Origin: Candidatus Gastranaerophilales bacterium
GTDB lineage: Bacteria; Cyanobacteriota; Vampirovibrionia; Gastranaerophilales; Gastranaerophilaceae
Reading direction: 5' to 3'
Assembly: GCA_944326585.1 (NCBI GenBank)
Contig: CALVEN010000003.1
Coordinates: 62,001 to 126,000, forward strand
DNA: 64,000 bases
Shown here: piece after piece, positions 2,552 through 52,697 of the stretch
Layout of the letters: each line of letters begins with the position of its first letter
Position numbering within the stretch: the stretch's first letter is position 1
Translations under genes and position numbers: made by a program
Notes under the pieces: model-generated
What the model was told of the DNA's origin: nothing
What the model saw: the letters and a program-made list of their open reading frames with translations, nothing else
Database searches by the model: none

Positions 2552-2619
2552 TTTGAATAAATGATTGAAATGAACAAAAATTATGCTTAAATCGTTATAA
2601 AAATAAAAGGATAGCGATT

Positions 2620-4083
2620 TTGCGATTTGGTATAAAAAAACTTGTAGCCCTATGCCTGTCATTTACACTGATGACAAGCATTTCCGCGTGTGCTATCGAA
2701 GAAATTACAATAGAAAAGGATTCTGTTGTAACCCTTAATGACTGTATAAAAATAGCGCTTGAAAACAGTCCTTTGATAAAACGGTTCAAATACAATTACG
2801 GAGTATCAAAAAGCAATGTAGGTCTTGCAAAATCAGCGTATTTTCCGACCCTCGGGGTAAGCACGGGCTACACCTTCAATGATTCCACATCATCAGGCCG
2901 TTTCAGGTCAATGACAAACCGGAATTCGTATAATGTTGAGGCGTCTTTGAACCAATTAATCTGGAATTTCGGAAAAACAAACGCGAATATAAGAATGCAA
3001 AAATTCAATATGATAACCGCATTATTTAACTTTGACGACAGCGTTCTGGATACGATTTATGAAGTAAAAACCAATTACTACGGAGTTTTAGCCGCAAAAG
3101 CCGCCGTTGATATTAATAAAGCGAACGTACAAATAAACGAAAGAAACTACCAGAGAATAAAAGCCTATTTTGACGAGGGAATACGTTCCAAAATCGACCT
3201 TGTAAATGCTGAGGTTAACCTGAGTGACTCCAAAGTAACCCTTGTAGATGCCGAAAAAGCATACAAAAACGCAATGGTAACCCTTAACAATTCAATGTAT
3301 ATAGCATTTACGCCGGATTACGAAATCACACCGACGGAGAGCTTCAACTTCAACGAAAGCACCTATTCAATAGACCTTGAAGAACTTGACAGGAAAAACG
3401 ACATAAGCACGCCCCCGCCTGCAGCGTCAGATGCAATGCTTACATCAACAGTTGAAAAAACCGATATTTTAACGGATTACAAATTTGAGGAATTTCCCTA
3501 TACATTTGAAAAAGCTGTTGAACTGGCATACAAAAACCGCCCTGATATAAAGGCTTATGACGCTACATTAAGGGCAATGGAAGAAAACCTTTTGTACATC
3601 AAACGCGAATATTATCCGGAACTTTCCGCAAGCGCGGGCTACGGTTACCGCAACATGAATTCGACAAGCTCTTTTAATGTAGGCGTAAATCTTTCAAGCA
3701 GCATTAATATCTTAGGCAAAAAACACGAAATCGACGCCGGCAAACTTCAAGTGCAATTAGCACAGAATGAAATTGATATGCTTAAACAAAACGTCTATTT
3801 TGAAGTTCAAAATGCCTACGTAAATATGATAGAATTAGAAAGACAAATCCCGCTTTTAGCCGTAAAAGTCCGCCAGACATTAGAAAACTTTGAACTGGCA
3901 GACGGAAGATACGCGGTCGGGCTGGGTGATTTTATAGAATTACAGGACGCAAAAGTCCAATACAACAATGCACAGCACAATTATGTGCAAACCGTGTATA
4001 ATTATAACGTAGCCAGAGCTTCTCTTGAAAAAGCCATGGCATTGCAGCAGGATGTAACAATAACAATTGAGGACGTAAATTAA
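2620..4083 (+). CDS. TolC-family outer membrane efflux protein
   Basis: Outer-membrane channel of a tripartite exporter (487 residues). An N-terminal signal peptide (RFGIKKLVALCLSFTLM) is followed by two outer membrane efflux protein repeats, each beginning with a LNDCIKIALENSP / FEKAVELAYKNRPDIKA type helix typical of the TolC fold. The predicted start is TTG at 2620, preceded by AAAAGG nine bases upstream; no ATG fits the signal peptide. It ends with a one-base overlap (TAATG) into the adaptor gene, and the ABC components follow, so substrates are exported by a MacAB-like pump. A low-complexity segment rich in Pro/Ala (about residues 265-280) interrupts the two halves. Confidence 0.87.
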   Translation: MRFGIKKLVALCLSFTLMTSISACAIEEITIEKDSVVTLNDCIKIALENSPLIKRFKYNYGVSKSNVGLAKSAYFPTLGVSTGYTFNDSTSSGRFRSMTNRNSYNVEASLNQLIWNFGKTNANIRMQKFNMITALFNFDDSVLDTIYEVKTNYYGVLAAKAAVDINKANVQINERNYQRIKAYFDEGIRSKIDLVNAEVNLSDSKVTLVDAEKAYKNAMVTLNNSMYIAFTPDYEITPTESFNFNESTYSIDLEELDRKNDISTPPPAASDAMLTSTVEKTDILTDYKFEEFPYTFEKAVELAYKNRPDIKAYDATLRAMEENLLYIKREYYPELSASAGYGYRNMNSTSSFNVGVNLSSSINILGKKHEIDAGKLQVQLAQNEIDMLKQNVYFEVQNAYVNMIELERQIPLLAVKVRQTLENFELADGRYAVGLGDFIELQDAKVQYNNAQHNYVQTVYNYNVARASLEKAMALQQDVTITIEDVN

Positions 4084-5241: not shown

Positions 5242-5931
5242 ATGGCTCTGATTGAAGTTAAAAACGCAATAAAAACATACCGCACAGGCGAAGACAGCTT
5301 CAATGCAATGAATAATGTTTCATTAAGCATTGAAAAAGGCGAATTTGTAGCGATTATGGGCGCCTCAGGCTCCGGCAAATCAACTTTTATGAATATGCTC
5401 GGAACTTTAGACAAACCCAACAGAGGGAGCTATTTTCTGGACGGTGTAGATATGCTGTCTTTAGCGCCGGATGAGCTTGCGGAAGTCAGAAATCTCAAAA
5501 TGGGTTTTGTTTTTCAAGGCTTTAACCTGATTTCCCGAACAACAGCGCTTGAAAACGTTGAACTTCCGATGATTTACAAAGGGATACCCGAAGAAGAAAG
5601 AATAATCCGCGCGAAAGAAGCTTTAAGGATAGTGGGGCTTGAAAACAGGGAAGATCACATGCCGAACCAGATGTCAGGCGGTCAGCAGCAGCGTGTTGCA
5701 ATTGCCCGCGCAATCGTAAACGATCCGCCGCTTATCTTAGCGGACGAACCCACAGGTAACCTCGACACCAAAACCAGTATTGAGGTTATGGAATTTTTTG
5801 TAAAACTCAACGAACAAATGGGCAAAACAATCGTGCTTGTAACTCACGAACCCGATATTGCTGAATACTGCAAACGCGTTGTACGATTTAAAGACGGAAA
5901 CATTATTTCCGATGAGGTAAAAGTTAAATGA
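5242..5931 (+). CDS. MacB/LolD-type ABC transporter ATPase
   Basis: ATP-binding subunit of the exporter (229 residues). Walker A is GASGSGKST, the Q-loop lies in VFQGFNLI, the signature is [14 protein letters not shown], Walker B is [12 protein letters not shown] and the switch histidine is in VTHEPD. This is the MacB/LolD/FtsE subfamily pattern. It begins one base after the adaptor stop and overlaps the permease gene by four bases (ATGA), consistent with one polycistronic unit. ATPase and permease are split into two proteins rather than fused as in E. coli MacB. Confidence 0.92.
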
Positions 5932-7157
5932 TAGACTTCAAATCAACGGTCAAAATGGCTATAATTTCATTAAAAATCAACAAAATGCGCTCGATTTTAA
6001 CTAGTTTAGGCATAATTATCGGGGTAAGCGCGGTTATCATAATGCTTGCGGTCGGCTCAGGCGCCAGCAAAAAAATCGCAAAAGATATGGAATCCATGGG
6101 CAGCAATCTTTTGATGATAAGGTCAGCCTCTGCAACCTCCGGCGGGGTTCGGATGGGGTTCGGCACAAAACCGTCTTTAACGCTTAAAGATGCAGACGCC
6201 ATCTACAAAAATTGCCGCGGAATAATGGCTGTCGCGCCTTATTCTTCCGCAACAAGCCAATTGACCTACGGTAACCAGAACTGGTCTACAACCGTCGGAG
6301 GCACCACTGCCGAATACCTGTTTATAAGAAATTACGAAATAGAATCAGGCAGAAATTTTGTTGAAGAAGATGTCAAAAACAATACCAAAGTCGCAATTAT
6401 AGGCAGCACGGTTGCAACGGAACTTTTCGGCGACATGAACCCCATAAATAAGACAATGCGTGTGGGAAATGTTCCATTCAAGGTAATCGGACTTTTAAAA
6501 ACCAAAGGTCAAAGCGGCATGGGAATGGATCAGGATGATCTTGTGTTCATTCCTATTACAACCGCCCAGAAAAAGGCTTTCGGAACGGAATACCCCGGAA
6601 CCGTCAAAATGATTAACGTAAAAGCACAGAATTCGGAAGTTTTACAAACCGCACAGGACGATATCACAGATCTTTTGCGAACCCGCCACAACATAGGCAA
6701 AAATCAAGAGGACGATTTTGAAATCCGTAACTTAGCCGAAATGCAGGAAACTATTAAATCCTCCGCACGTACAATGTCAATTCTTCTCGGTGCGATTGCA
6801 TCTGTATCTCTGTTGGTCGGCGGTATAGGGATTATGAATATCATGCTTGTATCGGTTACGGAAAGGACTAAAGAAATCGGCATCCGTATGGCAATAGGGG
6901 CAAAAGCTTCCGACATCAGGGTGCAATTTTTGATTGAATCGTTTTTATTGTCCGTAATCGGCGGTGTAATCGGTGTTGTTATAGGTGTTTTGGGTGCAAA
7001 AGTCGTTGAGCTTACAGATGCAATGACTATTTCAATATCAAGCGGCTCAATCATTTTGTCACTCGGGTTTTCAGGCGCAATCGGGGTTCTGTTCGGCTAT
7101 TATCCTGCCTACAAAGCCTCACTCCTTAACCCCATTGACGCGTTGAGGTATGAGTAA
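5928..7157 (+). CDS. MacB-like ABC transporter permease (FtsX family)
   Basis: Inner-membrane permease partner of the preceding ATPase (409 residues). One N-terminal membrane helix (ILTSLGIIIGVSAVIIMLAVG) precedes a large periplasmic MacB_PCD domain, followed by three C-terminal helices of the FtsX domain, including GGIGIMNIMLVSVTERTKEIG and the conserved IRMAIGA segment. It ends with the family-typical YPAYKASLLNPIDALRYE. Last gene of the tolC-macA-macB-like operon; substrates could be macrolides, peptides or lipids and cannot be chosen from sequence alone. Confidence 0.9.
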   Translation: MIDFKSTVKMAIISLKINKMRSILTSLGIIIGVSAVIIMLAVGSGASKKIAKDMESMGSNLLMIRSASATSGGVRMGFGTKPSLTLKDADAIYKNCRGIMAVAPYSSATSQLTYGNQNWSTTVGGTTAEYLFIRNYEIESGRNFVEEDVKNNTKVAIIGSTVATELFGDMNPINKTMRVGNVPFKVIGLLKTKGQSGMGMDQDDLVFIPITTAQKKAFGTEYPGTVKMINVKAQNSEVLQTAQDDITDLLRTRHNIGKNQEDDFEIRNLAEMQETIKSSARTMSILLGAIASVSLLVGGIGIMNIMLVSVTERTKEIGIRMAIGAKASDIRVQFLIESFLLSVIGGVIGVVIGVLGAKVVELTDAMTISISSGSIILSLGFSGAIGVLFGYYPAYKASLLNPIDALRYE

Positions 7158-7463
7158 TAAAGATACTAAGATACTAGGACAATAAGTTACTAAGAGTAAG
7201 TAGTGTATGTAAAATGAGTGACGGAAAGCCGGGAACGAGATTTTGCAGGTCGGATTATCCGACTGTAAATTTTTCTGTCGGCTTGGTAAAGACGACCTAC
7301 TGCTGTAAATCCTTAGTATCTTAGTGCCTTAGTATCTTAGTAACTTAATATCTTTATCCGAGATCCTGAAACGAGTTCAGGATGACAAATGTAGGTCGGA
7401 TTTACTAATCCGACAGTAAATCCTTACTGCCTTAGTATCCTAGTATCTTAGTATCTTCTCCAA
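7158..7463. repeat. Composite intergenic repeat region (AT-rich heptad arrays plus GC palindromes)
   Basis: This gene-free stretch between convergent operons is made of repeats. Copies of AAGATACTAAG on the left and CTTAGTATCTT on the right form inverted arrays (7165-7200, 7312-7355, 7428-7456). Between them are palindromes: GTCGGATTATCCGAC (7249-7263), a second imperfect GTCGG/CGAC hairpin (7277-7296), GAGATCCTGAA/TTCAGGATGAC (7360-7387) and GTCGGATT-TACT-AATCCGAC (7395-7414). Variants of the same modules recur at 47490-47830 and 52651-52674. No coding sequence is credible here. Function is unknown; it may be REP-like DNA or bidirectional termination. Confidence 0.75.
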
Positions 7464-8552
7464 TCACAACACTTCCAACAACGCTATTTTCATCAAATCC
7501 GTGTTGGGCTTTCTGCCTGTCCAAATTTCTTCCGCGGCAGCAGCCTGCCCGATAAACATATCAACTCCGTTCACGGTTTTGTAACCGAGTTTCTGCGCAA
7601 GCTTTAATAAAACAGTATTTTTCGGGTTATAAATAACGTCATAAACAAGCGCACCTTGGGGAAGCGTCATCAACTGCGGCTTTTCAACAGGAGTCATATC
7701 AGCGGAGCGTCCGAGCATACCGATAGGGGTTGTGTTTACAAGAATATCCACCATTGACAGATCTCTGATGTATTCTATCTGATAAGCATCAAATTTAACT
7801 TTCGGGAAAACTTTACGCATATAAGTCAACAATTCCAGCGAATTCGGGATACTTCTTGTGTAAAAACGGATTTCTTTTACATTGGAATCCGCGAGTGCAA
7901 CTGATGCCGCATGCGCAGCCCCGCCGGTTCCCAAAATTCCCGCGACTTTTCCGCTCAGGCTGAAATCGTTCGGTATTGCGTTTTTAAACCCGATAACGTC
8001 CGTATTATAACCCTTCATGGTTCTGTCAGGGTTAATTATAACCGTATTTATGGCACTTGCAATATCCGCGTATTTGTCAACTTCGTCAATAAACAATGCC
8101 ACCGGAAGCTTCAAAGGTATTGTAACGTTAAAACCTTTGTAGTTATTATTTTTCAGATATTTAATTCTTTCGACAAGCGTTTCCGGCGGAGTTTCCAGCG
8201 TTTCATAACTTGCATTAATGCCCATACTTTTGAATCCTGCGTTATGAATTACGGACGAAAGCGAATGCCCCAGCGGATAACCGATTACACAGAATTTATT
8301 TTCACGGCGGTCAACAATTTGAGGCTCGTAATTTTGCGTCAAAGCCGGCTCAATCGGTGTCTGATAAGTCTGCGGTACGGGATTAACCGGCGCAACAGGC
8401 TGCTCATACTGAGGCGGCTGAACTGATTGATGCTGAGGTTCCTCAAGAGGCTCTGAAGGCTGCATTGATCCGCCTTTGAGTTCTTCAACGGATATCCCGA
8501 GTTTTTTAGCTTTTTTTTGCAAATATCTTTCGTAAAGGTCTTTATTCAGCAT
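7464..8552 (-). CDS. aroE: Shikimate dehydrogenase with N-terminal extension
   Basis: NADPH-dependent reduction of 3-dehydroshikimate to shikimate in aromatic amino acid synthesis. The catalytic domain starts near residue 87 with FCVIGYPLGHSLSSVIHN (shikimate-binding S-x-S), followed by the catalytic lysine in VTIPLK, the NADP loop GTGGAAHAASVAL and the C-terminal GVDMFIGQAAAAEEIWTG. The first 85 or so residues are extra: a basic helix (YLQKKAKKLGISVEEL) and a Pro/Gln-rich linker absent from usual 270-290 residue enzymes. I chose ATG 8552 because AGAGG lies nine bases upstream; a longer frame to 8594 would only lengthen the overlap with topA. It overlaps the end of topA by 11 bases. Last gene of the lptC-to-aroE operon. 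Confidence 0.88.
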   Translation of the reverse strand: MLNKDLYERYLQKKAKKLGISVEELKGGSMQPSEPLEEPQHQSVQPPQYEQPVAPVNPVPQTYQTPIEPALTQNYEPQIVDRRENKFCVIGYPLGHSLSSVIHNAGFKSMGINASYETLETPPETLVERIKYLKNNNYKGFNVTIPLKLPVALFIDEVDKYADIASAINTVIINPDRTMKGYNTDVIGFKNAIPNDFSLSGKVAGILGTGGAAHAASVALADSNVKEIRFYTRSIPNSLELLTYMRKVFPKVKFDAYQIEYIRDLSMVDILVNTTPIGMLGRSADMTPVEKPQLMTLPQGALVYDVIYNPKNTVLLKLAQKLGYKTVNGVDMFIGQAAAAEEIWTGRKPNTDLMKIALLEVL

Positions 8553-10830
8553 TTTCTTCAGCCTCTTTTTTGTATGCGCACTTTGAGCAGACAATTGTAT
8601 CGCCGTTTTTCAAAACTTTTTTAACAAGAAGCGAGCCGCATTTGGGGCAAACTTCTCCTGTCGGTTCGTTCCAGAGAACAAAATCGCATTCCGGATACGC
8701 GTTACAGCCGTAAAAAACCGTACCGCGCTTGGATTTGCGCTCGACTATAATGCCTTTTCCGCATTTGGGGCATTTGACCCCCGTTGATTTATGGTAAGGC
8801 TTTCTGTGCTTGCAGTTTTGATTGGTACACTCAAGATATTTGCCGTAAGGACCTGTTTTGAAAACCATACCTGAGCCGCACTTTTCGCACTTTTCCTCGC
8901 AAATTTCTTCCGGCGGAGTTTCCGTATTTTCCTCATTTTGTTCGGATAAAACATTCATCGACATAACGGTTTTGCAATCAGGGTAGCCTGAGCAGCCCAG
9001 AAACTGTGTACCGAATTTGCTTGTTCTCACAACCATAGGCTTTCCGCAGTTCGGGCAATTGATACCGGTTTCTATATTAATCTTTTTCGCGGTTTTCATA
9101 ACGGAATTTACTTCTTCCATAAACGGGTCGTAAAAATCCTTCAAAACCTTGTTCCAGACGGCTTTTTTGTCGGCGATTTTATCGAGTTTTTCTTCCATGC
9201 CTGCTGTGAACTTGTAATCCATAATGTCGGAAAACTGTGTAACAAGCTGTTTTGAAACCGCACGTCCCAAAATTGTCGGATGAAGGGCTTTATCGCGTTT
9301 TTCAACGTATTTGCGTGTCTGAATTACCGTAATAATAGTTGCATAAGTCGACGGACGTCCTATTCCGTATTCTTCCAGAGCCTTGACCAAAGACGCTTCG
9401 TTATATCTCGGCGGCGGCTGGGTAAAGTGTTGTTTCGGGGTTATTTTATTACAATCAACGCTGTCGCCTTTTTCAAGGTCGGGGATTTTGGAATCTTCAA
9501 CCTTTTCGTCCTCCGCGTCGTTATAAAGTTTCAAAAACCCGTCAAAGGTAACCTTGCTTGTGCCTGCTCTTAACGTGTAATCACCTGCCGTAATCTCAAT
9601 TGATTTATTTGCGATTTCAGCGTTTGACATCTGGGAGGACATAAATTTGTCCCAGATCAGTTTATACAATCTGTACTGGTCATTATCAAGATATTGCTTA
9701 ATGCTTTCGGGCGTTCTTTCGGGGTAAGAGGGACGGATTGCCTCGTGCGCGTCCTGAACGTTTTGTTTGCCTTTGACGTAAATATTAGGGGTTTCGGGAT
9801 AATATTTTTCACCGAAATTATTCAGAATAAAATCCTTTGCCATTGCCATAGCGTCATCAGAAACCCTTGTACTGTCAGTTCTCATATAAGTAATAAGCCC
9901 GACTGCGCCTGAATCAAGCTCAATACCTTCATAAAGCCTTTGCGCAACCTGCATTGTTTTTTGAACTCCGAAACCGAGCTTGGAGCTTGCCGCTCTCTGA
10001 AGTGTTGATGTTATAAAAGGCGCGGTGGGTTTGCGTTTTGTTGATTTATTGGTAACTTTTGACACCAAAAAGTCGGAATTTTTAAGATAATCGACAATTT
10101 TTTGCGCTTCTGCTTCGTTTTTTATAGTTTTTTCAACGGGTTTGTCTTTGTATTTTGCGACTTCCGCCTCAAAAACTTTTCCGTCTTTTGCAAGCTCCGC
10201 GTGGATTGACCAGTATTCCTGCGGAACAAATGCCTCTATTTCGTCCTCGCGCTCGCAAATCATCCTCAACGCAACAGACTGAACGCGGCCTGCGGAAAGA
10301 TTATAATTTCCCATCTGCTTCCACAAAACAGGGCTTAACTTATACCCCACAAGCTTGTCAAGAATTTGTCTTGTCTGCTGTGCCTGCACCATATCCATAT
10401 TAATCATTCGCGGGTGTTCTACGGAATATTTTACCGCTTTCGGGGTAATTTCGTTGAACTCAATCCTTTTGATTTTTTCGTCGGGAACTTTCAAAACCTG
10501 TCGTACATGCCAGGCAATAGCTTCACCCTCGCGGTCAGGGTCGGAGGCGATATAGATATTATCAAACTTTTGCGCAAGGTCATTTAATTTTTTCACAACA
10601 GCCTTTTTGCCGGGGATAATCTCGAATTTCGGCTCAAAATTGTTATCAACGTCAAACCCTAAGTTATCGGTTTTCGGGTCTTTTGTCGGTAAATTCCTAA
10701 TATGTCCGAAACTCGCCTCAATCTGAAATCCGTCACCTAAAATCTTTTTGATTGTTTTGGATTTTGCGGGAGACTCAACGATTACTAACGATTTTTCTTT
10801 TTTATTTGTCTTTTTAGCTGTTTCTGCCAC
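8542..10830 (-). CDS. topA: DNA topoisomerase I
   Basis: Type IA topoisomerase that relaxes negative supercoils (762 residues). The TOPRIM domain opens with VIVESPAKSKTI and contains DPDREGEAIAWH; the active-site tyrosine is in YMRTDSTRVS. The C-terminus carries four tetra-cysteine zinc ribbons: CPNCGKPMV..CSGYPDC, CEKCGSGMV..CTNQNC, CPKCGKGII..CNAYPEC and CPKCGSLLV..CSKC. It starts two bases after the dprA stop and overlaps aroE, within a six-gene minus-strand operon. The topA-dprA adjacency is common across bacteria. Confidence 0.96.
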   Translation of the reverse strand: MAETAKKTNKKEKSLVIVESPAKSKTIKKILGDGFQIEASFGHIRNLPTKDPKTDNLGFDVDNNFEPKFEIIPGKKAVVKKLNDLAQKFDNIYIASDPDREGEAIAWHVRQVLKVPDEKIKRIEFNEITPKAVKYSVEHPRMINMDMVQAQQTRQILDKLVGYKLSPVLWKQMGNYNLSAGRVQSVALRMICEREDEIEAFVPQEYWSIHAELAKDGKVFEAEVAKYKDKPVEKTIKNEAEAQKIVDYLKNSDFLVSKVTNKSTKRKPTAPFITSTLQRAASSKLGFGVQKTMQVAQRLYEGIELDSGAVGLITYMRTDSTRVSDDAMAMAKDFILNNFGEKYYPETPNIYVKGKQNVQDAHEAIRPSYPERTPESIKQYLDNDQYRLYKLIWDKFMSSQMSNAEIANKSIEITAGDYTLRAGTSKVTFDGFLKLYNDAEDEKVEDSKIPDLEKGDSVDCNKITPKQHFTQPPPRYNEASLVKALEEYGIGRPSTYATIITVIQTRKYVEKRDKALHPTILGRAVSKQLVTQFSDIMDYKFTAGMEEKLDKIADKKAVWNKVLKDFYDPFMEEVNSVMKTAKKINIETGINCPNCGKPMVVRTSKFGTQFLGCSGYPDCKTVMSMNVLSEQNEENTETPPEEICEEKCEKCGSGMVFKTGPYGKYLECTNQNCKHRKPYHKSTGVKCPKCGKGIIVERKSKRGTVFYGCNAYPECDFVLWNEPTGEVCPKCGSLLVKKVLKNGDTIVCSKCAYKKEAEENAE

Positions 10831-14304: not shown

Positions 14305-14416
14305 AAGTCGTTAAGACGTTAGGTCGTTAAGTTCTTTAATAAGAAAGCGGTATTGGTGAGAATTTACTCAGACTGTTAAAAGAAATGAACTTATCGACTT
14401 ATCGTCTTAACGACTT
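14305..14416. repeat. Imperfect long inverted repeat upstream of dapA
   Basis: AAGTCGTTAAGACG at 14305-14318 is the exact complement of CGTCTTAACGACTT at 14403-14416, and the adjoining bases (through AAGTTC / GAACTT) continue the complementarity with a few mismatches, giving a stem of roughly 30 bp with a loop of about 50 bases. The 9-mer GTCGTTAAG is also directly repeated within the left arm. It lies between the divergent lptC and dapA genes. The architecture resembles the AT-rich inverted arrays at 7158-7463; no coding potential. Confidence 0.65.
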
Positions 14417-17813: not shown

Positions 17814-18195
17814 ATAATTTTTTCAGTACTTTCACGGTATCTTGAAGCTTTTGGGAGGCAACAAATTCCGCTTTCTTAGAAATCCCGTCAAGTGTCATGG
17901 TATTTTGTAATGAGTCAATGAACTTATTGACTTTTTCACGTTTCAAAGAATCTTTTACGGCTTTGTATTCATTATCCCAAAAAGCTCTTTTGTTTGTAGT
18001 ATTAAAACTTGCATCTTCAAGAGTTGATGTCGGAATCATTTCACCGCTTATTCTTTTTTCAGCCAATTCATAACGTTCAGGATCAAGCTGCTGAAGCTCT
18101 TTTTTCTGTCGTTCTGTTCTTGAACCGTCCAGCACCATACCTACAAGCGTCGCCCCTATAAGAACACCGCCGATTATATCACCTACTTTTGCCAT
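17812..18195 (-). CDS. Small protein with N-terminal glycine-rich membrane segment, unknown function
   Basis: A 127-residue protein I do not recognise. It begins with a short glycine-zipper-like hydrophobic stretch (VGDIIGGVLIGATLVGMVLDG) and continues as a charged, helix-rich domain (RTERQKKELQQLDPERYEL). I chose ATG 18195, seven bases after AAGGGG, over a GTG two codons upstream. It converges on secF and shares its terminator. Downstream of pdxA by 79 bases with a likely independent promoter. Confidence 0.6.
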   Translation of the reverse strand: MAKVGDIIGGVLIGATLVGMVLDGSRTERQKKELQQLDPERYELAEKRISGEMIPTSTLEDASFNTTNKRAFWDNEYKAVKDSLKREKVNKFIDSLQNTMTLDGISKKAEFVASQKLQDTVKVLKKL

Positions 18196-18273
18196 ATACA
18201 CACCCCTTTTTTGAGAATAGTAGTAAAAGAATACCTGAATGTCAATTCACGGGATAAATTTCTTGTTACAAAA

Positions 18274-19173
18274 TTAATAAACCGCTTTAATCGCTTCAAC
18301 CATGCCTGTTTCGTCCGCAAGGTTTTTACCTGCAATGTCAAAAGCCGTGCCGTGCCCCGGAGAAGTTCTTATGACATCAAGCCCGATTGTCATATTAACC
18401 GTTTTTGAACCGGCAACTGTTTTGATAGGGATTAAGCCTTGATCGTGGTAGTTTGCAATATAGCAGTCGTAACTGTCTTTAAAGTAATTAACAAATAAAG
18501 TATCCGCGGGCAAGGGATCTGTAATATCAATTCCGCGTCCGCGCAAAATTTCAACCGCCGGCCGCAGAATTTCTATTTCTTCCGTGCCTAAAATTCCGTC
18601 CTCGCCGGAATGCGGGTTAAAACCGCAAAGTGCGAATTTCGGCTCTTTTATTCCCAATTTTTCAACAAAAAATTCGCGGAGATTCGTAACTTTTTCAATC
18701 ACCATATCTTTTGTAAGCTTAACATCTTTCAACGCACAGTGGCGGGTCAAAAGCAAAACCCTGAAATTTCCGGCAACAAAAAGCATCTCGGCAAGCTGTC
18801 CGTCATGTGCCAGATATTTTTGCAAAATTTCAGTCTGCCCGTTAAAATTATGCCCCGCAAGGTGAAGTGCGTTTTTGGCAACAGGCGCGGTCACAATTGC
18901 TCTGCCTTTAAGCTCACACGCTTTTTTTAACGCTTGAAAACTGAATTCACCCGCCTGAGCCGTGACTTTTCCGGGCAGAATATCGTTTTTTTCATACGGA
19001 ATTTCAATAATTTCATAATCCTTATTCAATTTTCCGTAAAAATCAATAACCGCTTTGTTTGAAACTATAGCCGCATCAGACACAGGCAAATCAAGCTTGT
19101 TCAAAGCTTTAACCGTAATTTCCGCACCGATACCGTTCGGGTCGCCAGTTGTTATTAAAATTTTATCCTTCAT
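18274..19173 (-). CDS. PdxA-family dehydrogenase (4-hydroxythreonine-4-phosphate or 4-phospho-tetronate dehydrogenase)
   Basis: NAD-dependent, metal-dependent oxidative decarboxylase (299 residues from ATG 19173). Family hallmarks are ITTGDPNGIGAEITVKAL, GHNFNGQTEIL, GFNPHSGEDGILGTEE, ANYHDQGLIPIKTV and DVIRTSPGHGTAFDIAGK, with the metal-binding histidines in GHNF, YHDQG and SPGHG. It overlaps the upstream DUF1537-type kinase gene by 11 bases. That pairing is known for PdxA2, which oxidises 4-phospho-D-threonate or 4-phospho-D-erythronate to dihydroxyacetone phosphate, so a catabolic role is as likely as pyridoxal phosphate synthesis. The start is uncertain: TTG at 19182 is possible and neither has a clear ribosome site. 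Confidence 0.85.
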   Translation of the reverse strand: MKDKILITTGDPNGIGAEITVKALNKLDLPVSDAAIVSNKAVIDFYGKLNKDYEIIEIPYEKNDILPGKVTAQAGEFSFQALKKACELKGRAIVTAPVAKNALHLAGHNFNGQTEILQKYLAHDGQLAEMLFVAGNFRVLLLTRHCALKDVKLTKDMVIEKVTNLREFFVEKLGIKEPKFALCGFNPHSGEDGILGTEEIEILRPAVEILRGRGIDITDPLPADTLFVNYFKDSYDCYIANYHDQGLIPIKTVAGSKTVNMTIGLDVIRTSPGHGTAFDIAGKNLADETGMVEAIKAVY

Positions 19174-20476
19174 GGTGATCAAAATATTTTAAAATATCAA
19201 TTAAAGTATTAACCCCGCCGAGGTTGCCGGATTTTGTCACAATCCACTGCGCGTTATGATCCATACAAAGCGCAATTGCAGGTGCAACTTCGTCTATCAA
19301 TTGCAATTGTGCAGCTCCGATTTCAAAACAGCACTTGTATGAAGTTTCTCCGCCAAGGGTTATCAGTATCAATTCTTTTTTCAAAACTACCTGACGTGTT
19401 AATTCTGCAAGAAAATCGGTTATAACCCCTGCCAATTCAGCCTTTGTTAACTCGGCACGCAAGGATTCGTCCGAAAATCCGTCAAAATTCTTGATTAAAT
19501 TTGAAGTGTGAACCACAACAATATTTTTGCCCGAAAGATTTGAAACAATCCTGTCGACCAGCTCTTCCTTAACTCCGCCGAGTACTGTTTCCAAATCCAA
19601 ATCAATAACAAGCGTATTTTCGTCAAATTCCTCACTCGCCTCAAGCCTTTCAATCTGGCTTGCCGTAATCTGTGTGGCGCTTCCGGATACAATAAATTTA
19701 GGTAATTCCGGCAAAGTTTTGGCGACCCTGTCCGCATCCATGTCCGCAAACCAAACATTACTGAACGCACGCGCCGCAGCCGCTGTTCCGCCCGGTAAAA
19801 TATTATATTCGGATTTTTCTATTGCAAGAACTATCTGCTCAATATCCGTTGTGGAAACCGCATCCGCTATTATAAGCTTTTTCCCGTCTTTGATAAGTTC
19901 ATTTATTTTTCTGACAATAGGCCCCGCGCCCTTCATAACCGTTGACAAATCCAATGATGCCACAAGATTATGAAATTCATCCGGCAGCTGGGATTTCAAA
20001 AGCGTCGGGAGATGAGATTCCATAATAGGTGAATGCGGATCACGCGCCATTTCAGTCCTTTCAACAGGAATACCTTTTAAAAGATGATACCCGCCGACGG
20101 TTACCCTGCATTCCGCCGGAAATGCCGGAATTACAACCGCTGCGTCCCATTCAAGAACCTCCAGCATTGCAAGCGTTTCAACCGCAATATTTCCTCTTAC
20201 CGTCGAATCAATTTTTTTGTAATAATAATCAGGTTTTAATACCTCCGCAAACATTTTGACGGTATGTTTAACTTTTTCATACGCTTCATGAGGAGTTACA
20301 TTACGCGACTCCGTTGAAATTGCCCAGGTCTGAGTGCCTGCAATATTAAAAGGTTCAACTTCATCGCTCAATAAAATCTGGGTATTTGCCCCTCTCAAAT
20401 GAAATTGCAAAGCCGTATCGTTGGCTCCGGTTAAATCATCGGCGATTATTCCGACAACGTTTGAATTAATTATCAT
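19163..20476 (-). CDS. Four-carbon acid sugar kinase family protein (DUF1537)
   Basis: Predicted ATP-dependent kinase of four-carbon sugar acids such as D-threonate or D-erythronate (437 residues). The N-terminal substrate domain starts with VGIIADDLTGANDTALQF, with YYKKIDSTVRGN as a second conserved block; the C-terminal nucleotide domain has LITLGGETSYKC and the terminal VTKSGNLGGVNTL. It overlaps ssb by four bases upstream and pdxA by 11 bases downstream. The product would be the substrate of the neighbouring PdxA-like enzyme. Substrate identity is inferred from the family and context. Confidence 0.86.
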   Translation of the reverse strand: MIINSNVVGIIADDLTGANDTALQFHLRGANTQILLSDEVEPFNIAGTQTWAISTESRNVTPHEAYEKVKHTVKMFAEVLKPDYYYKKIDSTVRGNIAVETLAMLEVLEWDAAVVIPAFPAECRVTVGGYHLLKGIPVERTEMARDPHSPIMESHLPTLLKSQLPDEFHNLVASLDLSTVMKGAGPIVRKINELIKDGKKLIIADAVSTTDIEQIVLAIEKSEYNILPGGTAAAARAFSNVWFADMDADRVAKTLPELPKFIVSGSATQITASQIERLEASEEFDENTLVIDLDLETVLGGVKEELVDRIVSNLSGKNIVVVHTSNLIKNFDGFSDESLRAELTKAELAGVITDFLAELTRQVVLKKELILITLGGETSYKCCFEIGAAQLQLIDEVAPAIALCMDHNAQWIVTKSGNLGGVNTLIDILKYFDHHEG

Positions 20477-20811
20477 ATAGCAGCTTCCGCATCCCTTTTG
20501 GAGCCTAACAGTCTGATGCTGTTGGCAATTATAAGAAAGTTTTCTCTGTCGTTTCCGGTAGCCTTGTCAGTCCATTTGTTCTGGCCTATTCTGCCGTCTA
20601 CAGCCACCTGAATACCCTTTTTAACATATTCTCCGGCAAATTCAGCCTGCTTATCCCATACATCAATATTAAACCAATCAGCAACTTCCGCCTTGGTTTT
20701 GGGATCCCAGCGGTTTACGGCAACGGAAAAATTTGCCTTTACCTTGCCTGACTCAAAATATCTGACTTCCGCATCACGGCCTACTCGCCCTACTATTACA
20801 ACTGTATTCAT
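20473..20811 (-). CDS. ssb: Short single-stranded DNA-binding protein lacking the acidic tail
   Basis: An OB-fold SSB of 112 residues: NTVVIVGRVGRDAEVRYFESG, FSVAVNRWD, ADWFNIDVWDKQAE and GDGRIG-like VDGRIGQNKW. The frame is open to 20871, but ATG 20811 follows AAGAGGT with ideal spacing and starts exactly at the conserved SSB N-terminus. The usual acidic, glycine-rich tail ending in DDDIPF is absent; the protein stops shortly after the OB fold at SKRDAEAAI, so it may not recruit replication partners. The stop overlaps the sugar kinase start by four bases, an unexpected operon partner. Confidence 0.87.
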   Translation of the reverse strand: MNTVVIVGRVGRDAEVRYFESGKVKANFSVAVNRWDPKTKAEVADWFNIDVWDKQAEFAGEYVKKGIQVAVDGRIGQNKWTDKATGNDRENFLIIANSIRLLGSKRDAEAAI

Positions 20812-20885
20812 TTTTACCTCTTTCTTATAACATTTTACACTAAAAATGAAAATCTTGAGGCAAAAAAACATTTATTTAAGAAATG

Positions 20886-21116
20886 TTAAACATCCAGAGG
20901 CATAAGTTTGTCTATTGTAACTCCCAAAGCCTTTGCCAGTCTGACAATAACCACAAGAGAAGGACTGTATTTTTCATGCTCAATTCTGGCAAGATATTCA
21001 GGTGTTATATCTGCTTTTTCCGCAAGAACTTCCTGTGAAAACTGCCTTCTCGCTCTTTCCGCTCTCAAATTTTCCGCAAAAATTCTTATTATATCTTCTC
21101 GTTTCATGTTTTTCAT
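20886..21116 (-). CDS. XRE-family helix-turn-helix regulator
   Basis: A 76-residue protein that is essentially a single HTH_3 domain: LRAERARRQFSQEVLAEKAD, then ITPEYLARIEHEKYSPSL (recognition helix) and IVRLAKALGVTIDKLMPLD. It lies 74 bases upstream of ssb on the same strand and could co-regulate the ssb-kinase-pdxA unit. The start may instead be the ATG three codons in (21107); no good ribosome site distinguishes them. Confidence 0.82.
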   Translation of the reverse strand: MKNMKREDIIRIFAENLRAERARRQFSQEVLAEKADITPEYLARIEHEKYSPSLVVIVRLAKALGVTIDKLMPLDV

Positions 21117-40059: not shown

Positions 40060-40169
40060 AAAAAAAATCTCCCAGATTTCCGTGGTTGTACTACAAACTT
40101 ATATAAGCATTCCGACTGTAACGGCTGCGGTCCAGTGAGGGATTTTCACCCGAACTTTCCTTACATAAG
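40060..40169 (-). promoter_or_regulatory. Cobalamin (B12) riboswitch in the nrdD leader
   Basis: On the minus strand the leader shows the conserved core: GGGTGAAAATCCC, CACTGGACCGCAGCCGTTAC and AGTCGGAATGC. The core is closed by a 10-bp helix between CTTATGTAAG (40160-40169) and CTTATATAAG (40098-40107). Downstream a TTGT-AGT-ACAA hairpin is placed where the regulatory kissing stem-loop of this class lies, and the SD GGGAG sits in an AAATCT/AGATTT hairpin next to the nrdD ATG. B12 binding should hide the ribosome site and switch off nrdDG. The consensus is recalled from the family; no covariance-model score was computed. Confidence 0.82.
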
Positions 40170-40217
40170 TAATATGATTTTATAACTATTTTTCAAATTT
40201 GTCAATAAATCTCATTT

Positions 40218-45949: not shown

Positions 45950-47296
45950 CTAATATTCTTCCGCAATTCTCACAAAATCAAGGTTTTTCTTCATATCGTT
46001 TATGTATTTTCTCAAAATTATAAGCATTATTGTACAAAGAATAATTGCCGCACTTACAAGCCCGTACCAGAAGCCCATGATATTCATATTGTATTTAAAC
46101 GCAAGCGTATAACCTACAGGTATTGAAATCAGCCAGTATCCGATAAAATTCGCAATCATAACGATTTTGGTCTTTTTCATGCCCTTGAATATTCCGGCGA
46201 GCGACACCTGCAGCCCGTCAAACACCTGAAACAGAGCCAGTACATATAAAACAGGCACGCTGATATCAACGAGCTTGCTGTCAGATGTAAACAATCCGAC
46301 AAGAAAACCCGGAAAACTTGCAAAAATAATTGAACTGCAAGCCATAAACCCGACCGCCATTCCCAGACCTATATAAGCGTAACGTCGAAGTTCCATAAGG
46401 TTTTGCGCGCCGTTTGCGAACCCGACTTTTACCGCAATCGCGTTTGATATGGCAAGCGGCACCATAAAAGATACCGTTGTCAAAGTGCACACCAAATTCT
46501 GCGCAGCTGCATAAACCCCTGACACACGTCCCATAATTACCGCAACGCAATTAAACGCAACAAATTCAATCAAAATTGCAATTGATATGGGCATACCGAT
46601 TTTCAAAAGCCCCCTGAAATATTCCCTGTCATCTCTGTAATTGCGAAATTTCATCAGCTTAAAACAATACCACAACAGCACAAATCCCATAAAATATCTT
46701 ACGGTAAAACTTGCAATAGCAAGCCCTATTGCACCCAAAGACGGTATCGGACCCCAGCCGAACACAAGTATTGCGTTCAATGCAAGGTTCAAAAATACCG
46801 AAAACACAGTCACAACGTTCGGCAAAAATACAATTTCAAACGCCTGCAAAAATTCCTTCAACGCAGCATGCAAATACGCCCCGAAAGTCGAAAACGCAGT
46901 TATAATCATATATTCCTTAATCGGCTTTACAAGCTGCGGTTCAAAATTCAAATAATCAATCAACGGTACGCACAACAAAACGCCAATCATCATTATGACA
47001 GCCAAAATCATCGCAAACCTGATTGTCGGGTAAAAATACTTTTTAGCGGAGTGTTTTTCGCCCCTATAGTTTGACAAAAGCGGCGAAACACTTGCAATTA
47101 AACCGATTCCGAAAGTCATAATACAATTGGAAATAGCTGTTGCAATGGAAATAGCCGCGAGAGTATCCGTCGAATGACGTCCCGCAATCAAAACATCTCC
47201 CGCACCTATCATAATAAAGCCCAAATTCCCCATTATAATGGGCAGGGCAATATGTAACAGCTCTTTTGCATAATGTTTAAAATCGGATAAACGCAT
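45950..47296 (-). CDS. MATE-family multidrug/cation exporter
   Basis: Inner-membrane antiporter of 448 residues with 12 helices in two MatE halves: LLHIALPIIMGNLGFIMIGAGDV begins the first and LLKIGMPISIAILIEFV the second, each with the G-x-P-x-x-x helix-1 signature. ATG 47296 fits the family start; the frame is open to 47389 but that part is a repeat. No ribosome site is visible, a weak TACTAT -10 lies just before the start. Na+ or H+ coupling and substrate unknown. Confidence 0.9.
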   Translation of the reverse strand: MRLSDFKHYAKELLHIALPIIMGNLGFIMIGAGDVLIAGRHSTDTLAAISIATAISNCIMTFGIGLIASVSPLLSNYRGEKHSAKKYFYPTIRFAMILAVIMMIGVLLCVPLIDYLNFEPQLVKPIKEYMIITAFSTFGAYLHAALKEFLQAFEIVFLPNVVTVFSVFLNLALNAILVFGWGPIPSLGAIGLAIASFTVRYFMGFVLLWYCFKLMKFRNYRDDREYFRGLLKIGMPISIAILIEFVAFNCVAVIMGRVSGVYAAAQNLVCTLTTVSFMVPLAISNAIAVKVGFANGAQNLMELRRYAYIGLGMAVGFMACSSIIFASFPGFLVGLFTSDSKLVDISVPVLYVLALFQVFDGLQVSLAGIFKGMKKTKIVMIANFIGYWLISIPVGYTLAFKYNMNIMGFWYGLVSAAIILCTIMLIILRKYINDMKKNLDFVRIAEEY

Positions 47297-47950
47297 GACT
47301 ATATAGTAACATGAAAAAGACGATAAGTGTGTTTTTTGTTGCGGCAAATCCGGCATGTCCGAGGCACCCCTCGCCCCTTGGGAAAACAAAGCGAATCAAC
47401 TCGTTCCTCGTTGGTTCGCTTTGCAAAGTTCAACATGCTTTCTATTCCCTCCGCCTTGAGGGGTAAGAGTTAGGGTGGGGGTGGCTAAACTCAGGTCGGG
47501 TTAACCCGACTGTTAGTTTTTCTGTCGGCATAGTAATGCCGACCTACGTTTCCTAATTCTTCCCTCCCGCCCTTGAGGAACAAAGGGAGCCAACGAGGTA
47601 CGAGTTGTGCGACCCTGTTTCCGAAACGTAGTGAAGGTGGGAGGGTTAGGGTGGGGGGATTTTTCTTGAGATCCTGCGGAAAAACCGGACATTTTTCACA
47701 AAATCGTAGATTTTGGAAAAAGTAGTCAAACAAGTTCAGGATGACATAAAACCTCTCGCCACTCACTCTAAAACCTTCTTAGTATCTTAGTAACTTTATC
47801 CGAGATTCTTCGCTAGCGCTCAGAATGACTGAGTCCTGCCCCTCTTGTTCGCTCGCATTAAACGGCGTTGCGGTCTTTGCCTTCGCAAAGCCCTTCAGCC
47901 TCTGCTCGCTCACGCTCAGGCACTTCAGGATGACAATAAGTTATCCCCCT
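47297..47950. repeat. Composite intergenic repeat region
   Basis: A gene-free stretch of mixed repeats. The GTCGGGTTAACCCGAC (47495-47510) and GTCGGCAT-AGTA-ATGCCGAC (47524-47543) palindromes are variants of those at 7249-7296. AGTTAGGGTGGGGG occurs twice (near 47468 and 47646). GAGATCCTG and AGTTCAGGATGACA (47668-47745) are the two arms of the 7360-7387 palindrome split by about 55 bases; GAGATTCT..AGAATGAC (47803-47829) is another variant. A module with CTTTGC-CTTC-GCAAAG (47875-47890) shares flanks with 32063-32130. Short open frames across it (47491-47766, 47825-48250) are not genes. Confidence 0.75.
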
Positions 47951-50900
47951 TTAGTCAACCGAGAAGATTTCCTTCAAATCTTCCATAGTAAGCGATTTAG
48001 TAATATTTCTGTCAACGGAAATTACGCTGTCAACAAGATTGCGTTTAATTGTTTTGAGTTTTTGAATTTTTTCTTCAACAGTATTTTTTGTGATAAGTCT
48101 GTAGACAAATACTTTTTTAGTCTGACCGATACGATAAGCACGGTCTGTTGCCTGATCTTCAACCGCAGGGTTCCACCACGGGTCGTAATGGATTACGTAA
48201 TCCGCGCCGGTCAAGTTCAAGCCCGTTCCGCCGGCTTTCAAACTGATTAAGAAAATCGGAATTGACGGTGTTGAATTAAATCTTTCAACAGCAGCCTGAC
48301 GGTCTTTTGTTTTACCTGTCAGGTATTCATAATCAATGCCTTCGCGCTCAAGCCAAGCTTTTACGATATCCAGCATGTCGACAAATTGGCTGAACAAAAG
48401 CACTCTGTGACCTTCAGAGATAATTTCTTCCAGCATGGATTTAAGTTTTTCAAATTTACCTGAGGACATAATATTTTTAACGTTTTCTTTATCGTAAAGC
48501 CGCGGGTGGCAGCAGATTTGACGTAATCTGAGAAGTGCGGAGAAAATCGACAATCTGCTTTTTTCAAGTCCGTTCTGCTCGATACTTTTGAACAATTCTT
48601 CTTTGGTACTGTCAAGAACCTGCAGATAGAAGTCTTTTTGCTCATCCGTAAGTTCACAGTATGCAATGTTTTCGACCTTATCCGGCAAATCTTTTGCAAC
48701 ATCGCGTTTCATACGTCGCAAAATAAACGGATAAATCTGCAATTTCAGACGTTTTTCAACGGTTTTGTCCTGACGCTCCATAATCGGGTTAACATATCTG
48801 TAATTGAAATCCGCAACGCTGAACAAAAATCCCGGCATCAAAAAGTCGAATACAGACCACAATTCCTCAAGTTTGTTTTCAATCGGGGTGCCGGAAAGCG
48901 CCAGTTTATGCTGGGATTGCAGTTTTTTAACCGCCTGAGCAGTTTGCGACATCGCGTTTTTAATATTCTGAGATTCATCAAGAATTATATATCTGAAATT
49001 AATATTTTTCAGTTTTTCAATATCGCGTCTGACAAGTGCATAGCTTGTAATTACAACATCGTAATTCGGAATTTCCTTAAACATCTGTTTGCGCTCAATC
49101 CCTGCAAGTTTTAAACATGTCAAAGTCGGCGCAAATTTTTGAATTTCGGCTTCCCAGTTAAAAACAACCGTTGTCGGACAGATTACAAGAGTCGGCATCG
49201 GACCGTCCTCTTCTTTTGCCTTCTGAACAGCCGTCAGAGCCTGTAAGGTTTTACCAAGCCCCATGTCGTCCGCCAGAATCCCGTTCAGTCCGTATTTATA
49301 CATAAACCAGAGCCAGCCGAAACCTTTTGTCTGGTATTCACGGAATTCCGCATGAATACCTTCCGGCAGCGTCAAATCCTCTGACGTTGAGAATGTTGAC
49401 ATCTGCTCCCAGAATTTTTCAAAGTCATCGCTCAAAATAAGCTCAACACCGAGGTTCTTCAATTCATTGATAAGCCCTGCACGGTAGGTTTTTACGGTAA
49501 ATCTGTTATCGGGCGTTCTATACACATCAAAAGAATTAAATGCCCTCATCATTGCGTAAATATTCTGCGCCGGATATTCTACAAAGCCCAAACTTCTTAT
49601 GCGGGCATATTTTTCACCGCTTTGAATAGTTTCGTAAATATCGTCAAAGTTGATAATCTCATCACCGGCTTTTCCGAAAATATGAATTTCAAAGCTGTCC
49701 TGTGATTCCTCGCTGAATTTAATTTCCGCACATAATTTGAAAGGCTCGTCCATAAGCTTGAAAAAGCCCATATCGTCTTTTTCTTCAAACTTCCAGCCGT
49801 CGCCTGCCTGTTTTATATAATAATTGTAAAAATCAATTGCGTTTTCTTTTTCAAGCGCAAGGTTATTGGTCTGCATCGGAACAAATTTGCATGCCAGAAG
49901 CATATTATATGCCTCAATTTCGTGCTTGTAATTGCGTTTGACCCAGTAAATCAAATCCTCATCGGGTTTTTTAATGGTAAGATAAGGTGATTTTTCCTTG
50001 GCATTTTTGGAAAACGGCACCCTGACCCCGTCATATTCAAATTCCAGAGCGGCTTTCAATGATTGGTCATAATCAATTCCGAGCGTCACGATATTCAAAG
50101 GCGGACGTTCTTCAAGCATTAATTTGGAAATATTATCCGCAATTCTGACATCCATAATTTCGCGCAGTTTCGGCAATTCTTCATAGATAAATTTGCCGCC
50201 TTCCGCATCTTTCAAATCGGTAAAAGTGGATTTCAAAAGGTTTTGCGGAATGGATTGCATTGCAATATTTGTCGGGAAAATTATGTTTTTATATCTGCCC
50301 CATTTCAAATGTCTTGAAAAATACCTGACCTCTTCAAACGGGTAAACATCGTCCTTATCAGGTCTTTGCCATTCAAGGGACAAAAGTATGGTACCGGCTT
50401 GAGAACTGTTAACATACAACACAAGCTGCCATTCTTTGTCGGTAAACTTCAACCTCTGTTTGGTTTTCTCATCCAGAACCTCATCCGCCATGGCTAATAA
50501 GCTGAACATCGGACCGAATTTGGTAATCGGAATGTCATACCAGCCGGCTTTTTTGTCCTGACGCGAAATTTTCAACAGCTCTTTTAAAATATTCAACTCA
50601 ACTTTTTGAGTGTTATTGATTTCAAAATTTTTATCCTGTTTTTGGGCTTCAATAAAATTCCTCAAAATCGGTTCAATCTGGCGGACGACCTTGCCTGTTT
50701 CCCTTGACATTACAAGGATTGAAAAGAAATTTGCTTTTCTTTTCGGGTTAAAGTGGAAAATGTAATTCCCTTTAGGCGGTTCTGTCAAAGCCGTATTTTC
50801 ATCCGGAAAATCAAATTCCATACCGAATTTAGTTTCCAGCCAATCTTCATAAGCATGTTCATCAATAGCTTTCAGAGCAACGGCAACGGCATGTTTGCAC

Positions 50901-51130
50901 CATTCTTCCTTTAAAGGGCAGTTGCATCTGGCGGTTACACCGTTTTTCTTAAAGATTAAATCGGTATTATAATGATCCTGAAAATTCCCTTTGACTTTTG
51001 CCATATAGAAATTCTTTTCAGGATAAGCATCGAACACCATATCTTTCAGATGGTATTCGTAACCTCTGCGCCAGCTGCCAGCGCTTGCATGCTCTTTTAT
51101 AAACTTATAATTGAATTGCTCGCCACTCAT
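47951..51130 (-). CDS. SWI2/SNF2-family helicase with SWIM zinc finger
   Basis: Large DNA-dependent ATPase of 1059 residues. The N-terminal SWIM finger is ARCNCPLKEEWCKHAV (C69, C71, C78, H80). The SNF2 helicase is in the C-terminal half: motif I DDMGLGKTLQAL, motif II ILDESQNIKN, motif III LSGTPIENKLEELWS, then SLKAGGTGLNLT and QATDRAYRIGQTKKV. The central 500 residues are an SNF2-associated region. Bacterial members are of largely unknown role (HepA/RapA relatives or defence-associated). It is solitary, with no methylase or nuclease neighbour, arguing for a housekeeping role. Confidence 0.93.
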   Translation of the reverse strand: MSGEQFNYKFIKEHASAGSWRRGYEYHLKDMVFDAYPEKNFYMAKVKGNFQDHYNTDLIFKKNGVTARCNCPLKEEWCKHAVAVALKAIDEHAYEDWLETKFGMEFDFPDENTALTEPPKGNYIFHFNPKRKANFFSILVMSRETGKVVRQIEPILRNFIEAQKQDKNFEINNTQKVELNILKELLKISRQDKKAGWYDIPITKFGPMFSLLAMADEVLDEKTKQRLKFTDKEWQLVLYVNSSQAGTILLSLEWQRPDKDDVYPFEEVRYFSRHLKWGRYKNIIFPTNIAMQSIPQNLLKSTFTDLKDAEGGKFIYEELPKLREIMDVRIADNISKLMLEERPPLNIVTLGIDYDQSLKAALEFEYDGVRVPFSKNAKEKSPYLTIKKPDEDLIYWVKRNYKHEIEAYNMLLACKFVPMQTNNLALEKENAIDFYNYYIKQAGDGWKFEEKDDMGFFKLMDEPFKLCAEIKFSEESQDSFEIHIFGKAGDEIINFDDIYETIQSGEKYARIRSLGFVEYPAQNIYAMMRAFNSFDVYRTPDNRFTVKTYRAGLINELKNLGVELILSDDFEKFWEQMSTFSTSEDLTLPEGIHAEFREYQTKGFGWLWFMYKYGLNGILADDMGLGKTLQALTAVQKAKEEDGPMPTLVICPTTVVFNWEAEIQKFAPTLTCLKLAGIERKQMFKEIPNYDVVITSYALVRRDIEKLKNINFRYIILDESQNIKNAMSQTAQAVKKLQSQHKLALSGTPIENKLEELWSVFDFLMPGFLFSVADFNYRYVNPIMERQDKTVEKRLKLQIYPFILRRMKRDVAKDLPDKVENIAYCELTDEQKDFYLQVLDSTKEELFKSIEQNGLEKSRLSIFSALLRLRQICCHPRLYDKENVKNIMSSGKFEKLKSMLEEIISEGHRVLLFSQFVDMLDIVKAWLEREGIDYEYLTGKTKDRQAAVERFNSTPSIPIFLISLKAGGTGLNLTGADYVIHYDPWWNPAVEDQATDRAYRIGQTKKVFVYRLITKNTVEEKIQKLKTIKRNLVDSVISVDRNITKSLTMEDLKEIFSVD

Positions 51131-52650: not shown

Positions 52651-52674
52651 TGTCATCCTGAACTCGTTTCAGGA
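52651..52674. repeat. Dispersed palindromic repeat copy
   Basis: These 24 bases (TGTCATCCTGAA then CTCG then TTTCAGGA) are the exact reverse complement of 7364-7387. It lies between rsgA and the prenyl synthase and forms a TCCTGAA/TTTCAGGA hairpin. Confidence 0.8.
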
Positions 52675-52697
52675 GCTTGCCTGAGAGGCAAAATAAT

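Follow-up and report, generated by a model that had tools for sequence, protein, structure and literature searches.

Short palindromes that carry the tetranucleotide GTAG at their foot and often occur as inverted pairs are the published form of GTAG REP, BIME, and REPIN elements (PMC3733652, PMC3116915, PMC3686654). As far as the consulted parts of these papers go, compensatory hairpin changes in REPINs have already been called common and singlets are regarded as probable remnants (PMC3116915), and REP classes are described as remaining after loss of the RAYT transposase or as switching type, termed orthoswitch (PMC3686654). For a perfect-palindrome REP, the relevant section of PMC8266576 reports that cleavage requires the GTAG foot, that it was affected or nearly abolished by a mismatch in the stem, and that complementing the stem blocks had no drastic effect. 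In the portions of PMC6006769 considered here, REPs in frame within RAYT genes are given as a unique feature of RAYT subclass 2.4, with some also in subclass 2.8.

The window analyzed here is a stretch of 64,000 nucleotides from a Candidatus Gastranaerophilales genome (G000; 1,703,243 bases in 16 contigs, 99.68% complete). The original prediction had described a doublet module at 7249-7300 and 47495-47546, a single form at 7395-7414, and a first stem that is GGAT/ATCC in one copy and GGGT/ACCC in the other; all of these were present as described when the sequence was read directly. Absent from that description were the GTAG/CTAC feet, which are the defining ends of the REP unit. With the feet included, three elements lie on the forward strand. 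The doublet at 7245-7300 consists of foot GCAG (7245-7248), hairpin A GTCGGATTATCCGAC (7249-7263), T-rich linker TGTAAATTTTTCT (7264-7276), hairpin B with one stem mismatch (7277-7296), and foot CTAC (7297-7300), and it sits in the spacer where two convergent genes meet, 5928-7157 (+, MacB/FtsX-like permease) and 7464-8594 (-, shikimate dehydrogenase). The doublet at 47491-47547 consists of foot TCAG (47491-47494), hairpin A GTCGGGTTAACCCGAC (47495-47510), linker TGTTAGTTTTTCT (47511-47523), hairpin B (47524-47543), and foot CTAC (47544-47547), between the same-strand ORFs 45950-47389 (-, MatE) and 47951-51130 (-, SNF2 helicase). Both doublets are degenerate, with GCAG or TCAG in place of GTAG and the TACT-type loop gone from the first hairpin. 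The singlet (7391-7414) has an intact GTAG (7391-7394) followed by GTCGGATTTACTAATCCGAC (7395-7414), an 8-bp stem with a TACT loop. Folding z-scores as single-stranded DNA were -3.6 for 7245-7300, -5.6 for 7391-7414, and -6.2 for 47493-47547. A second dispersed palindrome, GAGATCCTGAAACGAGTTCAGGATGACA, occurs at 7361-7387 and 52651-52677 of the window; it adjoins many REPs and joins a repeat mosaic around them, in which arrays of TTAGTATCTTAGTAAC-like 8-mers also take part.

Genome-wide searches at three or fewer mismatches gave 48 matches for the first REP pattern and 41 for the second hairpin type, two overlapping sets, against 0 for either reversed control. The exact hairpin with its linker gave 5 matches against 0 in the control, and a looser pattern was less clean (88 against 37). 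Removal of two chance hits (C12:17689 and C9:11831, which still figure in one set of pair counts) reduced 57 half-units to 55, in 40 elements dispersed on 13 contigs of the 1.7-Mb genome, and the predicted dispersed palindrome family was borne out. Each half-unit has an 8-bp stem of GTCGG plus three pairs and usually a TACT or TACC loop, and a GTAG (or GTGG) foot directly adjoins the palindrome in most of the 55. Flank alignment gave the order of the full element as GTAG, hairpin A, TGTNAATTTTTCT or similar, inverted hairpin B, and CTAC, the linker being 13 nt in most inverted doublets. By a crude ORF call, 25 of 55 half-units lie within ORFs of at least 110 codons, and many REP-containing ORFs are 5' extensions of prepilin-like ORFs. 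We consider it highly probable that the repeats are a GTAG-tagged REP family, mostly inverted doublets of the REPIN/BIME type, that was spread by a RAYT transposase. The kind is already known; the host genome is of the Candidatus Gastranaerophilales type, an uncultured gut relative of cyanobacteria.

Judged from the cited parts of these papers, the nearest described form is that of the perfect-stem Stenotrophomonas REPs, which form 'REPtrons' of GTAG REP and RAYT (PMC3686654, PMC8266576). As there, the GTAG foot directly adjoins an 8-bp perfect stem with a short loop in many dispersed copies, RAYT genes are flanked by the same REP, related RAYTs go with different REP classes, and copies are left where the RAYT is missing. 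The G000 family differs in its stem sequences and 4-nt TACT-type loop, and its setting differs in the Candidatus Gastranaerophilales host, the absence of the cognate RAYT, and the location of about half of the copies at prepilin-gene leaders. Two inverted REPs with a short spacer are the common unit here as in the REPINs of PMC3116915, whereas the long hairpin described there pairs the two REPs together and the lowest-energy fold of an intact doublet here, as single-stranded DNA, is two separate hairpins (-17.9 kcal/mol, z -8.35).

Hairpin A together with the T-run that the linker supplies could also be read as an intrinsic transcription terminator, and one terminator-like match with a T-rich tail does lie at 47494-47511. 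However, the 1.2-kb region around the 47495 site contained 1 such structure (GC stem with an immediate T-run) against 1.9 expected in shuffled sequence, singlets carry no T-run, half of the elements precede genes, the linker forming an A-run on the gene's strand, and no Rfam family was found at these places. We regard this explanation as extremely improbable. A known RNA family was likewise discarded as an identity for the repeats: the only Rfam hit was an AdoCbl-II (cobalamin) riboswitch aptamer elsewhere in the window (40097-40177, minus strand; 38 bits, cut-off 36.5).

Stem covariation within the genome was assessed on 28 distinct full-length half-units of G000; the loop-deleted half-units at 7249, 47495, and C9:13900 differ in length and so do not enter the pair counts. 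Paired cells amounted to 88.8%, compared with a shuffled mean of 80.2 and at most 41.1 for slid structures, and the covariation score, with a shuffled mean of 0.069, was 0.200, a value attained in 0 of 500 shuffles. Pair 9/18 (CG 12, GC 6, AT 4, GT 2, other 4) and pair 10/17 (TA 16, AT 7, other 5) covaried, and the other six of the eight stem pairs showed no covariation. When the copies were collected and aligned as proposed, the score exceeded the shuffles but the number of covarying pairs did not (498 of 500 shuffles attained it). Stem covariation is real but limited, and consists mostly of switching among few stem haplotypes.

A cross-genome set, in which the inner 10 bases were left free, comprised 89 genome-type rows and 54 distinct decamers from the 19 of 29 genomes with a match among the matches listed; each decamer type was counted once per genome, and decamers that only repeated a listed one as read on the other strand were omitted. 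Among the matches listed, the three inner pairs were Watson-Crick in 68, 78, and 86 of 89 rows, against shuffled means of 27.1, 37.2, and 63.8. At least seven stem triplets were fully paired across the 19 genomes (ATT/AAT, CAT/ATG, CTT/AAG, GCA/TGC, GCT/AGC, GTT/AAC, TTT/AAA). In 15 G000 doublets aligned with their flanks, GTT or ATT prevailed in the first hairpin and CAT or CTT in the second, and each first type was seen with each second type. Although flanked on either side by closely similar sequence, the elements at C2:93798 and C3:28128 differ in both hairpins, and the CTT stem type mostly has a loop of its own, TACC. This pattern looks like whole-hairpin exchange, not repair of single mutations.

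Orthologous sites were compared in related genomes. The spacer containing 7245-7414 is 306 bp in G000 and 409 bp in G012, where one block is tandemly doubled. It is 162 bp in G001, with one singlet that shares the GCAG foot and has a full loop, and 60 bp in G002, with one REP of another family; in G003, G004, G011, and G015 it is 0-10 bp and holds no REP. The spacers of G005, G006, G013, and G014 (317-414 bp) showed no such REP by inspection; G007, G008, G009, and G010, which could not be read across, were excluded from the comparison. At the 47495 spacer, no such copy was found in G001, G002, G003, G006, G009, G011, or G012; the G002 spacer contains two REPs of that other family. Elsewhere, at a position equivalent to window 14308-14415, G012 carries a doublet that is missing from G000, with borders that are not clean. 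The orthologous hairpins compared were identical or nearly so with one exception, C2:122321, in which pair 9/18 is A-T in G009 and G-T in G000 and G012, a one-sided change. The evidence for REP mobility here is this presence or absence at sites, as seen by sequence comparison.

These comparisons bear on the idea that a conserved RNA or DNA structure evolves by compensation in place, each copy being functional in situ and a stem mutation being repaired by a second one on the opposite side. The covariation score above shuffled and slid controls and the one-sided step at C2:122321 speak for such a process. Nevertheless, we assign it only a small probability: 2 of 8 pairs covary; the stem types are limited to a few haplotypes, to which particular loop bases are linked, and all four pairings of hairpin types occur; orthologous sites vary by presence or absence more than by substitution; both window copies are decayed; and G-T and A-C intermediates do not clearly differ in frequency (13 versus 9 rows and 8 versus 8 types in the 19-genome set, among the matches listed), a result that also led us to reject selection for RNA on one strand. 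The original prediction that pairing is kept while sequence changes is supported, whereas drift by in-place compensation is not supported, and between the two agents it had offered, selection on structure or hairpin replacement, replacement fits better; no stepwise compensation was found at the orthologous sites. Selection for pairing most likely comes from a RAYT that recognizes the hairpins in single-stranded form, and by analogy the cleavage biochemistry described in the cited section of PMC8266576 is the likely reason for pairing without a fixed sequence.

Half of the family, 20 of 40 G000 elements, is found 139-367 bp ahead of a prepilin N-methylation motif, which is on the same side in every case. 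REPs upstream of this motif were also found at 18 of 33 loci in G012 and 19 of 26 loci in G009, at 66-384 bp and with the gene always downstream. One REP-linked ORF matched Pfam N_methyl (22.5 bits, cut-off 21.2), and the motif was otherwise rare (1 in 79,400 bp of G000, comprising the window and C9:1-15400; 3 in 682,234 bp of RAYT loci). Prepilin-like genes with the motif AFTLAEVLITLxIIG, for example at L006, L016, L017, and L011, have long leaders partly encoded by palindromic repeats. The prepilin link was rejected as a general property of such REPs, as outside the genus only L056 had the motif downstream of a REP (479 bp).

This position, together with flanks that several copies share on both sides, raises passive duplication, in which the repeats ride in larger duplicated blocks, chiefly the leaders of prepilin-like genes, and no transposase is needed. 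As an account of the whole family it is very unlikely: the remaining 20 elements, which include both doublets of the window, have no prepilin motif at that position, the same REP type occurs in other genera mostly without the motif, and RAYT genes bear the same REPs. For about half of the G000 copies, prepilin-gene leaders and not RAYT may nonetheless have been the vehicle of spread.

Spread by RAYT, the reading that we prefer, directs attention to the transposase genes. G000 has one Y1 transposase gene, a RAYT by NCBIfam NF047646 (143.8 bits, cut-off 80); an IS200/IS605 identity was rejected, the transpos_IS200 profile giving 36.1 bits (cut-off 55) and the RAYT profile scoring better. Using a profile of 27 RAYTs, E. 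coli TnpA-REP (4er8) was recovered as the top match by sequence (E 1.2e-36). An AlphaFold2 model of the G012 RAYT protein (50 sequences, mean pLDDT 88.1) had the same structure, in which E. coli TnpA-REP is bound to a REP hairpin, as its best fold match (E 1.4e-16, TM-score 0.81). H57, H59, and Y117, of the HUH and tyrosine motifs, are invariant in the 50 RAYT rows. By profile, motifs, and predicted fold, these genes are RAYTs (TnpA-REP).

In the same genus, the RAYTs of G012 and G013 carry GTAGGTCGG REPs upstream and within the gene, with the stem triplet CTT in G012 and ATT in G013, and the RAYT-linked REP of G012 is identical to the G000 hairpins at C2:88104 and C2:93834. The RAYT gene is thus flanked by a REP of the window family in G012 and G013 but not in G000, whose only RAYT is linked to a REP of another type, GTTGGGCATACTTGCCCAAC, with a GTCG foot (L036:1-400 on G000 C9; 12 sites of this type in G000 at three or fewer mismatches). 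The G000 RAYT (L036) reads as the same protein in G010 (L088). Bases 1-110 of the G012 RAYT stretch match G000 C8 17824-17930 and bases 876-4000 match 17969-21094, the RAYT itself being absent; G009 also lacks a RAYT at the orthologous site. In the adjoining region of G000, C8:17500-17930 (L256), the tRNA 3' end and a leader block of ~150 bp are tandemly repeated downstream of a tRNA-like sequence. Because its only RAYT has another REP and the site of the G012 RAYT lacks the gene, G000 is classed as REP-rich without a detected cognate RAYT. Such REPs are abundant in other genomes without a detected RAYT (G009, G042, G065), and RAYTs are also found in genomes with few such REPs, so that, read by eye, REP number and RAYT presence diverge in both directions. 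A cognate RAYT could lie in the unassembled part of G000, or the other RAYT of G000 might act on the window family.

In the mechanism that we propose, the RAYT, an HUH/Y1 single-strand nuclease, would bind the folded single-stranded hairpin; it would need the foot and an unbroken stem and tolerate changes of stem sequence, and any stem variant that remains paired would thereby spread. A change of stem type would follow from an orthoswitch, a switch in the type of the REPs at a RAYT gene, after which the new type would spread and old copies would decay. With the cognate RAYT gone or never there, the G000 family would be an orphan whose copies lose their feet and loops and are shuffled by recombination, about half of them in the duplicated leader region upstream of prepilin-like genes.

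We also compared 92 distinct RAYT loci (from L079-L106 and L109-L188, after removal of 15 duplicate loci and of L081, which is cut by the locus end; L107, a weak match of another kind, and L108, a fragment, were also excluded). In 44 of 92, a REP-like palindrome lies within nt 150-300 of the gene, between the HUH and Y motifs and in frame 0 in 44 of 44, coding VGxxxPT; two further palindromes in RAYT genes are off frame. This in-gene REP is inverted and lies at approximately +252 to +261 (for example L112:272-772 and L036:339-875). In the AlphaFold2 model, the residues it encodes (85-91) form the stretch that directly follows helix 67-84 and precedes strand 101-104. In-frame REPs within the transposase gene recall RAYT subclass 2.4 as presented in the consulted passages of PMC6006769, unlike whose Y motif YIxNNP, found in 0 of the 86 proteins with an identifiable Y motif (of 92), the RAYTs compared here have YIHYNP/S, YIHFNP, or YV variants.

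Of the 44 genes with an in-gene REP, 39 also had a footed REP upstream, in most cases 42-51 nt ahead of the start. Set against the reverse complement of the in-gene REP, the upstream REP differed on average at 0.72 of 20 positions, compared with 4.66 when shuffled (the minimum in 2000 shuffles was 3.03); when each of the 15 distinct combinations was counted once, the values were 1.27 and 5.64. Their feet agreed in 34 of 39. A downstream inverted REP was present in 3 of 44 genes with an in-gene REP versus 26 of 48 without (Fisher p 9.5e-7, a test that ignores relatedness). On a tree of 88 rows (4 of the 92, shorter than 150 residues or identical, were left out), the in-gene versus downstream comparison gave 6 pairs, on average 2.7 in the expected direction and 0.1 in the opposite one, too few for significance (sign test, median p 0.25). 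The third positions of the V and P codons, which pair in the hairpin, were paired in 42 of 45 tree rows (33 T-A, 9 C-G); for these synonymous positions and for the upstream match, independent pairs on the tree numbered only 1 to 3. L145 has no in-gene REP and an inverted downstream one, and the other members of its clade mostly have an in-gene REP. The pattern runs one way and suggests that the in-gene REP largely replaces the downstream REP, although it rests on few events.

The 5' half of a RAYT gene was found in G020 (C9:7685-8028, L332), where ~345 bases match the G039 RAYT region at ~97-98% identity by eye. The match begins 10 nt ahead of the upstream foot and extends ~9 nt beyond the in-gene foot; outside it the two sequences diverge and another REP follows. 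For this single case, deletion explains the half gene as well as movement. Among 16 fragment loci, this was the only one that ends at the in-gene REP, and we rejected RAYT fragments as general products of REP-bounded movement. We tentatively entertain the possibility that the in-gene REP is kept for a purpose, forming with the upstream REP (approximately -46) one doublet over the 5' half of the gene in place of the downstream REP, and that the loop VGxxxPT is rewritten with each switch of REP type. The in-gene REP may serve as a self-recognition, autoregulatory, or end signal. In-gene REPs are known from other RAYT subclasses; the matched upstream and in-gene arrangement, the fixed position, and the near exclusion of a downstream REP do not appear in the passages of PMC6006769 considered here.

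In the literature covered by title and abstract opening, with few subscription papers and no preprints included, no REPs or RAYTs were reported from Gastranaerophilales or Melainabacteria. The present analysis places REP/RAYT biology in a non-photosynthetic gut cyanobacterial order and accounts for stem covariation that is visible in the raw sequence. Very close species, 98-99% identical at these loci, nevertheless differ in their REPs and in the presence of the cognate RAYT, so that gain and loss can be traced at single sites. According to the cited portion of PMC3686654, the molecular mechanism of the orthoswitch can only be speculated on; a RAYT with a REP in its coding sequence makes such switches traceable, because hairpin, flanking copy, and protein loop change together.
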